Positions 32,144-34,163 of a stretch of DNA of 64,000 nucleotides are shown in pieces. This DNA comes from Marilutibacter penaei (lineage in GTDB: Bacteria > Pseudomonadota > Gammaproteobacteria > Xanthomonadales > Xanthomonadaceae). Under the pieces are notes generated by a model. It searched no databases. It worked only from the letters and a program-made list of their open reading frames with translations, and was not told the origin of the DNA. The stretch covers positions 29,075-93,074 of the forward strand of contig NZ_JACHTE010000009.1 in assembly GCF_014145395.1 (NCBI RefSeq), read 5' to 3'. Positions within the stretch are counted from its first letter, which is position 1. Each line of letters opens with the position of its first letter. Position numbers and translations under genes: made by a program.

Positions 32144-33841
32144 TCAGGCCACCGCGGCCTCGTGCACCCCCGCGACCGCACGGCCTGAAGGGTCGGCGGC
32201 ATGGGCGAACGCCGCGTCCCAGGCAATTGCCGCGGGCGAGGAGCAGGCGATCGACTTGCCGCCGGGCACCGTCGCGGCGCATGCGGGGCCCGGGAAGAAC
32301 TGCTCGAACAGGTGGCGGTACAGGTAGGCCTCCTTGCTCTGCGGGGGGTTCACCGGGAAGCGACTCGCCGCCGCCGCGAACACGCGGTCGCTGACGGTCG
32401 CTTCGGCATGCGCCTTGAGGCCGTCGATCCAGCCGTAACCCACGCCATCGCTGAACTGCTCTTTCTGGCGCCACAGGATCGACTCGGGCAGGTAACCCTC
32501 GAAGGCCTCGCGCAGGACCGCCTTCTCGATCCGCCGGCGCCCGTCCGCGCCGACCATCTTGTGCGATGCATCCATCGACATCGCCACGTCCAGGAAGTCC
32601 ACGTCAAGGAAGGGCACCCGCGGCTCGACGCCCCAGGCCATCATCGACTTGTTCGCACGCAGGCAGTCGTAGTTGTGCAGGGCATCGAGCTTGCGGATGG
32701 TCTCGTCGTGGAACTCTCGGGCATCCGGCGCCTTGTGGAAATAGAGGTACCCGCCGAACACTTCGTCGCTGCCCTCGCCGGACAGCACCATCTTGACGCC
32801 CATCGCCTTGATCCGCCGCGCCAGCAGGAACATCGGCGTCGACGCGCGGATGGTGGTGACGTCATAGGTTTCGATGTGCCGGATCACCTCGGGCAACGCA
32901 TCCAGGCCCTCCTCGAAGGTGTAGGTGAAGCCGTGGTGCACGGTGCCCAGCGCCTCCGCCGCCACCGCCGCGGCCTTCAGGTCGGGCGAGCCCTCCAGGC
33001 CGATCGCGAAGGAGTGCAGGCGTGGCCACCAGGCCTCGGATGCGTCGTTTTCCTCGATGCGGCGGCGGGCGAAACGCGCGGCGACTGCCGCCACCAGCGA
33101 CGAGTCCAGCCCGCCCGACAACAGCACGCCGTACGGCACGTCGCACATCAGCTGCCGGTGCACGGCGGCTTCGAAGGCCTCGCGCAGGGCCTTCGGGCTG
33201 ACCGCCACGTCGCGGGTCGCTTCGTGGTCGCGCCACGGGCGATCGTAGTAACGCTGCAGCTCGCCAGTGGCGCTGTCGTACACGTGGCCGGGCGGGAACG
33301 GCGCGACATCCGCGCAGGTGGGCGCAATCGCTTTCATCTCGGACGCCACGCACAGCCGACCCGCGTCGTCGTGGCCCCAGTAGAGCGGACAGACGCCAAT
33401 GGGATCGCGGGCGATCAGGTAGCGCTGGCGTTCCCGGTCCCACAGGGCGAATGCGAAGATGCCGTTGAGGCGATCCAGCCACGCCCCCGTTCGGCCCGTT
33501 TCCGCCGCCTGCCGATAGAGGGCATTGATGACCTCGCAGTCGGAACCGGTCTGGAAGTCGTAGGGCTGCTCGAGCGACTGCTCCAGTGCGCGGTGGTTGT
33601 AGATCTCGCCATTGACGGCCAGGACCAGGCGTCCGTCGGCGGATCGCAGCGGCTGCGCGCCGCCCGCCGGATCCACGATCGCCAGCCGCTCATGGACGAG
33701 GATCGCGCCCTCGTCGACGAACACGCCACTCCAGTCGGGCCCGCGATGGCGCTGGCGCTGGGACTGCTCCAGGGCCTGCCGACGAAGGGCGACGACGTCG
33801 TCGCCTGGCTGCAGGCCGAAAATTCCGAGGATCGAGCACAT
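32144..33841 (-). CDS. asnB: Asparagine synthetase B, glutamine-hydrolysing
   Basis: AsnB makes asparagine from aspartate, ATP and glutamine. The 565-residue protein has the N-terminal nucleophile Cys2 (MCSILGIFG) of the class II glutaminase domain, RHRGPDWSGVF and LAVNGEIYNH, then the synthetase domain with the PP-loop LLSGGLDSSLVAA (about 237-249) and VLSGEGSDEVFGGYLYFHKAP. An AAGGAG site (complement of 33849-33854) precedes ATG 33841. A transcription terminator and an Asn-rich leader reading frame lie upstream, pointing to control by charged tRNA-Asn. It is the E. coli AsnB type (554 residues). Confidence 0.96.
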   Translation of the reverse strand: MCSILGIFGLQPGDDVVALRRQALEQSQRQRHRGPDWSGVFVDEGAILVHERLAIVDPAGGAQPLRSADGRLVLAVNGEIYNHRALEQSLEQPYDFQTGSDCEVINALYRQAAETGRTGAWLDRLNGIFAFALWDRERQRYLIARDPIGVCPLYWGHDDAGRLCVASEMKAIAPTCADVAPFPPGHVYDSATGELQRYYDRPWRDHEATRDVAVSPKALREAFEAAVHRQLMCDVPYGVLLSGGLDSSLVAAVAARFARRRIEENDASEAWWPRLHSFAIGLEGSPDLKAAAVAAEALGTVHHGFTYTFEEGLDALPEVIRHIETYDVTTIRASTPMFLLARRIKAMGVKMVLSGEGSDEVFGGYLYFHKAPDAREFHDETIRKLDALHNYDCLRANKSMMAWGVEPRVPFLDVDFLDVAMSMDASHKMVGADGRRRIEKAVLREAFEGYLPESILWRQKEQFSDGVGYGWIDGLKAHAEATVSDRVFAAAASRFPVNPPQSKEAYLYRHLFEQFFPGPACAATVPGGKSIACSSPAAIAWDAAFAHAADPSGRAVAGVHEAAVA

Positions 33842-33903
33842 GGGTCCACTCCTTTGTCTGTTTTCGGCGGGGCCCCTCCCGGGGCGCCGTTGTGCCGATC
33901 AAT

Positions 33904-33930
33904 AAAAAAGCCCGCACTTTCGGTGCGGGC
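33904..33930 (-). terminator. Attenuator terminator upstream of asnB
   Basis: Read on the minus strand, GCCCGCAC (33930-33923), loop CGAAA, GTGCGGGC (33917-33910) and six T residues (33909-33904) form a textbook intrinsic terminator 62 bases before asnB. It lies inside the asnB transcript and after a short leader frame, so it is an attenuator rather than the end of another gene. Confidence 0.9.
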
Positions 33931-33983
33931 CGGGGAGAGCGACGTTTGTATTGCCTACGCGCTAATCACCGGCCCCAGCGGGG
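33927..33983 (-). promoter_or_regulatory. Antiterminator and protector pairings of the asnB attenuator
   Basis: On the minus strand three segments compete. Segment 1 is CCCC (33983-33980), segment 2 is GGGGCCGG (33976-33969, within the last leader codons) and segment 3 is CCGGCCC (33933-33927, including the base of the terminator stem). 1:2 forms a protector hairpin and leaves the terminator free. 2:3 forms a 7-bp antiterminator that removes the start of the terminator stem. A ribosome stalled at the Asn codons would cover segment 1 and favour 2:3. Confidence 0.75.
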
Positions 33984-34075
33984 CGGGTGTTGGTATTCAC
34001 GTTGTGGTTGCGCAGCGCCGCGACCACGCCAGGGGCGCAGGCGATGAGGTCGGCATTGGCATGGATACGGGGCAT
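33962..34075 (-). CDS. Asparagine-rich leader peptide of asnB
   Basis: This is a 37-codon frame from ATG (complement of 34073-34075) to TAG, with an AGGA site (complement of 34083-34086) 7 bases upstream. Residues 23-30 read NHNVNTNT: Asn at 23, 25, 27 and 29, plus Asn7. Four Asn codons in seven, just before alternative RNA pairings and an intrinsic terminator upstream of asparagine synthetase, is the layout of trp/his/leu-type leader peptides but for asparagine. The peptide itself probably has no other function. Ribosome stalling when charged tRNA-Asn is scarce would allow asnB transcription. Confidence 0.82.
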   Translation of the reverse strand: MPRIHANADLIACAPGVVAALRNHNVNTNTRPAGAGD

Positions 34076-34163
34076 GCGGCGATCCTGCCCGAGCCCCCGC
34101 CGCGACGCAAGCGGCGCTTTCATCTGAAACGTATGCGGCGCCAACGTGGCACCATCGTGGGCC

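Follow-up and report, generated by a model that had tools for sequence, protein, structure and literature searches.

How is the expression of an asparagine synthetase gene set according to the asparagine supply of the cell, and does the short asparagine-rich reading frame that precedes asnB in Marilutibacter penaei take part in this? The asnB gene lies on the minus strand, at 32144..33841, of the 64,000-nucleotide stretch of DNA analysed here (the window), and its 565-residue product scored 855 bits against the NCBIfam equivalog for glutamine-hydrolysing asparagine synthase B (NF006949, cut-off 499), in agreement with the gene's naming in a preliminary description of the locus. The closest named AsnB was that of Lysobacter spongiae (89%). 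A single AsnB match was found in the 3.17 Mb genome, which gave no match for asnA or gatB and contains asnS, encoding asparaginyl-tRNA synthetase (matched in 178 of the 200 genomes drawn from the order), so that charging of tRNA-Asn should depend on free asparagine; AsnB looks like the sole asparagine maker of this genome. We consider it highly probable, from comparison of the upstream region with that of relatives, that a ribosome-mediated transcription attenuator sets asnB expression in response to tRNA-Asn charging. Further upstream on the same strand are genes with Pfam matches to M20 peptidase, ArsC-family and THDPS, the first and last of these fitting dapE and dapD respectively (names assigned from the Pfam matches), and a divergent penicillin amidase gene separates all three from asnB. 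The leader stands directly 3' of the apparent dapE end in some relatives (L006 and L035, by eye).

All elements of the locus described below are on the minus strand. The leader peptide frame (33962..34075) begins with an ATG at 34075, comprises 37 codons followed by TAG and translates as MPRIHANADLIACAPGVVAALRNHNVNTNTRPAGAGD. Its coordinates, and the asparagine codons at 23, 25, 27 and 29, had been given correctly in the preliminary description, and codon 7 is an additional asparagine codon. The clustered codons Asn23, Asn25, Asn27 and Asn29 (33989..34009) are the putative sensing codons, with three of them at least 15 nt before segment 2, and a run of four alternating asparagine codons was found in only two places in the genome, namely this leader and an AACGGC-type repeat. 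Segment 2, the candidate antiterminator strand (GGGGCCGG, 33969..33976), lies at the end of the leader, where its GGGCCGG (33975-33969) is complementary to CCGGCCC (33933-33927) within segment 3, the terminator 5' arm and its flank (33923..33933). Segment 4, comprising the terminator 3' arm and U run (33904..33917), was located by terminator scan, and the intrinsic terminator said to precede asnB was found at 33931-33909, with 9 pairs and then TTTTTATTGA. A putative protector, segment 1 (GCCCC, 33980..33984), can pair with GGGGC (33976-33972), as was predicted in the local fold. The asnB ribosome-binding site AAGGAG (33849..33854), assigned from the sequence, is outside the terminator, and a GC-rich inverted repeat was noted by eye between the two at about 33888-33865. 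Evidence from the window alone was modest (whole-leader fold, z -1.66; antiterminator pairing, p 0.053), and the leader was judged to exceed chance because of the evidence from relatives.

For the census of relatives, 200 genomes were drawn from the window's order, 127 of which had AsnB at E 1e-150 or better, and 126 upstream regions were read (450 nt in nearly all), with a partial match in genome G156 excluded. The frames counted lay entirely upstream of asnB and held 3 or more Asn within 9 codons. Such a frame was found in 33 of 34 regions from the window's family, in 28 of 29 from family f12, which would be Rhodanobacteraceae judging by likeness to named loci, and in 3 of 3 from family f2, giving 64 of 66 for the three families together, where dinucleotide shuffles would give 2.5. 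L165 and L169, which lack such a frame, carry divergent AsnB proteins with 64 and 66% identity to that of the window. The remaining families of the order reached the same mark in 3 of 60 regions (L151, L199 and L166), approximately the chance number (2.9 expected). The short frames of L151 and L199, with 3 Asn in 9 codons, were rejected as leaders, their number being about that of chance. The frame of L166 (family f7) is followed 21 nt after its stop by a strong terminator, with fair pairing of the antiterminator (p 0.04), and this attenuator looks real although the total for the other families is the chance number; the 28 other members of f7 were without such a frame, beyond the chance-like one of L199. 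Among the 43 named loci (L002-L044), the 40 taken forward all had frame and terminator, and no such frame was seen in the three left out (L008, L029 and L040, on contigs labelled Holophagales, Rhodococcus and Deltaproteobacteria). In a further set (L045-L081), read over 320 nt upstream and with a chance control only for the genome of L073, the count within 9 codons rises to 4 Asn at L073 and L057 and to 3 at L061, L065, L072 and L081.

The enrichment was by far the greatest for asparagine. At a mark of 4 in 9 codons, asparagine was found in 60 of the 66 regions compared to 0.1 in shuffles, the next largest counts being those of arginine (29 against 25.7) and alanine (27 against 18.4), with a small excess for glutamine (5 of 66 against 0.3). 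At 5 in 9 codons asparagine was found in 54 regions against 0, and the excess of alanine was smaller (13 of 66 against 3.3). These counts bear on the proposal that the attenuator senses translation in general, with any slow leader ribosome giving read-through. Codon usage might be taken to favour such a reading, as the leaders are rich in AAT, the asparagine codon that asnB itself uses less: it accounts for 331 of 709 asparagine codons in 105 leaders (taken as longest frames, with at least two genomes entered twice), and for 55 of 345 in asnB itself at 41 named loci. The pre-eminence of asparagine, and the identity of the controlled gene as an asparagine synthetase, make a general sensor extremely unlikely. 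The roughly threefold higher share of AAT in the leaders than in asnB genes may serve to slow the ribosome or to avoid unwanted GC pairing.

Alignment gaps before the stop codon preserve the reading frame. Internal gap runs upstream of the stop were multiples of three in 96 of 96 cases in one alignment (A1) and 44 of 48 in another (A2), compared to 57 of 257 and 14 of 169 downstream of it, with runs counted per sequence and shared events therefore counted repeatedly. Within this preserved frame the leaders range from 20 to 45 codons, and the number, spacing and neighbours of their asparagine codons are freely variable. Such variability is to be weighed against nascent-peptide arrest, by which free asparagine or another small molecule, not scarcity of charged tRNA, would make the asparagine-rich peptide stall the ribosome translating it, on the model of TnaC, whose arrest responds to tryptophan (a passage of PMC9045200). 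A ribosome stalled in this manner would use the same antiterminator, and the lengths of the leaders would suit it. Arrest peptides usually retain fixed residues, and with asparagine codons so free to vary in the asnB leaders we regard peptide arrest as very unlikely, and continue with charged tRNA-Asn as the probable signal.

A terminator was found to begin 16-32 nt after the stop codon in all 64 of 64 census leaders. The detector is lenient, reporting some hairpin for 24% of the shuffled stretches. The weakest score observed, however, was reached by only 0.8% of 1280 shuffles and the median score by none; in the other families 2 of 60 regions reached the weakest score. The tail of the leader can pair with the terminator 5' arm at p <= 0.05 by shuffling in 45 of 65 loci (about 0.01 or less in 33), and 20 of the 65, including the window itself, miss p 0.05 individually. 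Combining the loci gives a Fisher p of about 1e-49, calculated as though related genomes were independent. Less open to kinship is a swap test with one locus per genus, in which the partners of 23 loci (from genera that are still related) were permuted 5000 times. Cognate antiterminator pairings gave -24.1 kcal/mol against -20.5 kcal/mol when permuted, with 0 of 5000 permutations as good, and the terminator arms likewise gave 0 of 5000. The complementarity of the antiterminator, as claimed in the preliminary description for the window, is thus kept while the sequences diverge between genera; within families the helix varies mostly on one side.

The third stem fared differently. The preliminary description had a further segment sequestering segment 2, and the GCCCC/GGGGC pairing is visible in the window, but the swap test, in which 818 of 5000 permutations were as good, does not support the protector helix as a conserved third stem. 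Local folding gave it a weak signal (Fisher p 0.003, with p <= 0.05 reached by only 2 of the 24 genera). Many relatives from Xanthomonas and Stenotrophomonas show the protector clearly, as a 10-pair hairpin with its loop within two asparagine codons. The conservation upstream of asnB that had been anticipated across relatives was accordingly found for the asparagine run, the frame, the placement of the stop, the terminator and the antiterminator, and the swap test did not support it for the third stem.

As a short terminated RNA is predicted, and as such roles have been reported for the rhizobial trp leader, both its RNA and its peptide, we also considered that the terminated asnB leader might serve mainly as a trans-acting small RNA or functional peptide, with control in cis a minor matter. 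The sequence beyond the asparagine run and the pairing segments is variable in the alignments, and the frame stands before asnB in 64 of 66 regions, which together leave this reading a next to negligible probability.

The spacing of the elements agreed with the classic stall and stop geometry proposed for the window. At least one asparagine codon was placed 15 nt or more before segment 2 in 65 of 65 leaders (two such codons in 64), and the distance from the start of segment 2 to the end of the stop codon had a median of 20 nt (17-32), although this geometry is partly built in, segment 2 having been sought from 9 nt before the last asparagine codon onwards. With asparagine codons ahead of segment 2, a ribosome stalled at an early one would leave segment 2 free, and with segment 2 near the stop codon, a ribosome at the stop would hide it.

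The start of the leader appears to differ from what was first described. The AGGA taken to be its ribosome site is contained in CAGGAT (34082..34087), which is probably a -10 box by the promoter spacing of relatives. This putative -10 element, 6 nt before the leader ATG, begins 17 nt after a putative -35 element, TTGCGT (34105..34110), and relatives share a TTGC-type -35 with a spacer of 16-18 nt. In 98 of 105 leaders, 6-7 nt separate the end of the -10 from the start codon. The census leaders have a promoter-like pair at this distance of 6-7 nt in 60 of 65 cases, compared to 19% in shuffled upstream sequence, and a promoter score of at least 10 was reached by 63 of 65 compared to 14% in shuffles, the start being chosen in leaders and shuffled controls alike as the in-frame start with the best promoter score. 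Each of the window's two hexamers shares only 3 of 6 bases with the sigma-70 consensus; for this reason the pair was not reported by the promoter scan of the window, and the case for a promoter there comes from the conserved spacing. Such spacing would place the first transcribed base at the A of the AUG or about one base away, which suggests that translation of the leader may begin on an AUG at the 5' end of the RNA. Several relatives from Xanthomonas, Stenotrophomonas and Luteimonas (loci such as L025, L027, L038 and L100) show, by eye, a GCAAC-N-GTTGC palindrome some 40 nt upstream of the leader that overlaps the -35 and is possibly an operator; none was seen in the window or, by eye, in Rhodanobacter.

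From these elements the following course of regulation is proposed. RNA polymerase would start at, or within one or two bases of, the leader AUG, as the promoter spacing suggests, and a ribosome would load onto this 5'-terminal AUG. When Asn-tRNA is sufficient, the ribosome would proceed to the stop codon and cover segment 2, so that segments 3 and 4 would form the terminator and asnB would remain untranscribed. When asparagine is short, the ribosome would be expected to stall at the asparagine cluster, upstream of segment 2, which would then be free to pair with the terminator 5' arm, and polymerase would read into asnB. In some lineages the protector hairpin (segments 1 and 2) may cause termination when no ribosome is present. 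If this is correct, asparagine joins the amino acids sensed by leader-peptide attenuation, and the attenuator explains how a group that includes Xanthomonas, Stenotrophomonas, Lysobacter and Rhodanobacter may adjust asparagine synthetase. The leaderless leader, if real, would be a simple case in which to study the first coupling of ribosome and polymerase.

A second lineage with similar leaders was found in the Rhodothermales (Bacteroidota), the order of the Rubrivirga contig L073, where 14 of 80 genomes had AsnB at E 1e-150 or better. Six loci (L208, L210, L211, L212, L213 and L220) had a frame with 3 or more Asn within 9 codons, where shuffles would give 0.04, although these loci were picked after being seen. 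A strong terminator also precedes asnB in each of them. Five of the six represent every genome with AsnB at the cut-off among the 9 searched in their family, and the other eight AsnB genomes of the order had at most 2 Asn in 9 codons. The antiterminator was not significant in the six loci (p 0.09 to 0.86), and because of this the claim for Rhodothermales is limited to frame and terminator; the leader is apparently a separate asparagine attenuator. We put at about even the chances that asparagine attenuation arose at least twice, once in an ancestor of Xanthomonadaceae and Rhodanobacteraceae (Gammaproteobacteria) and once in Rhodothermales, and that in the former the leader peptide is leaderless, its AUG being the first codon transcribed, with regulation starting by ribosome loading at the 5' end.

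To place the leader among known RNA elements, all Rfam families were compared with the whole window. At gathering score only a tRNA and a guanidine-II riboswitch were reported, with no T-box and no attenuator family, and a relaxed search over the leader gave anti-hemB (20.8 bits) and Trp_leader (20.6 bits) as best matches, each well short of the gathering score of its family. The genome gave no match to the His_leader and Thr_leader models at E 0.001, and no short His-rich leader was recognisable at the hisG locus. The guanidine-II riboswitch (25568-25524, minus strand, 41 bits) sits just 5' of a small multidrug resistance family gene (25505-25188), a known arrangement for guanidinium exporters. 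In the open-access literature searched for asparagine, asnB and attenuation, we found no earlier report of an asparagine case of classic leader-peptide control. The strings 'asparag' and 'asnB' had 0 occurrences in the main text of PMC2965389 and PMC1262725, and no asparagine attenuator appeared in passages of PMC3771888, PMC6337780, PMC2311275, PMC5009743 and PMC9045200.

Of the defining features of attenuators that were tested, the asnB leader has the frame, the codon run, the terminator and the antiterminator, and the protector stem gave the weak signal described above. The textbook cases of leader-peptide attenuation are those of the trp, his, leu, ilv, thr and phe operons, and the asnB leader resembles them in its short frame, which contains a run of codons for the pathway product, in an antiterminator and terminator that share one arm, and in the position of its stop codon, at which a terminating ribosome would hide segment 2. 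It differs from them in its asparagine codons, in controlling asnB and in a start codon that probably forms the 5' end of the transcript. The likeness to the Trp leader (RF00513) is a weak match over the antiterminator-terminator part, below threshold at 20.6 bits against a gathering score of 41, and the asnB leader has no Trp run. T-box elements likewise read tRNA charging to control transcription termination, but do so by direct contact of RNA and tRNA and without a leader peptide. The leaderless trpL of rhizobia is alike in that its transcript begins with the first base of the attenuator leader; it differs in its Trp codons and in belonging to Alphaproteobacteria, and for the asnB leader it is the promoter spacing that points to the same kind of start.
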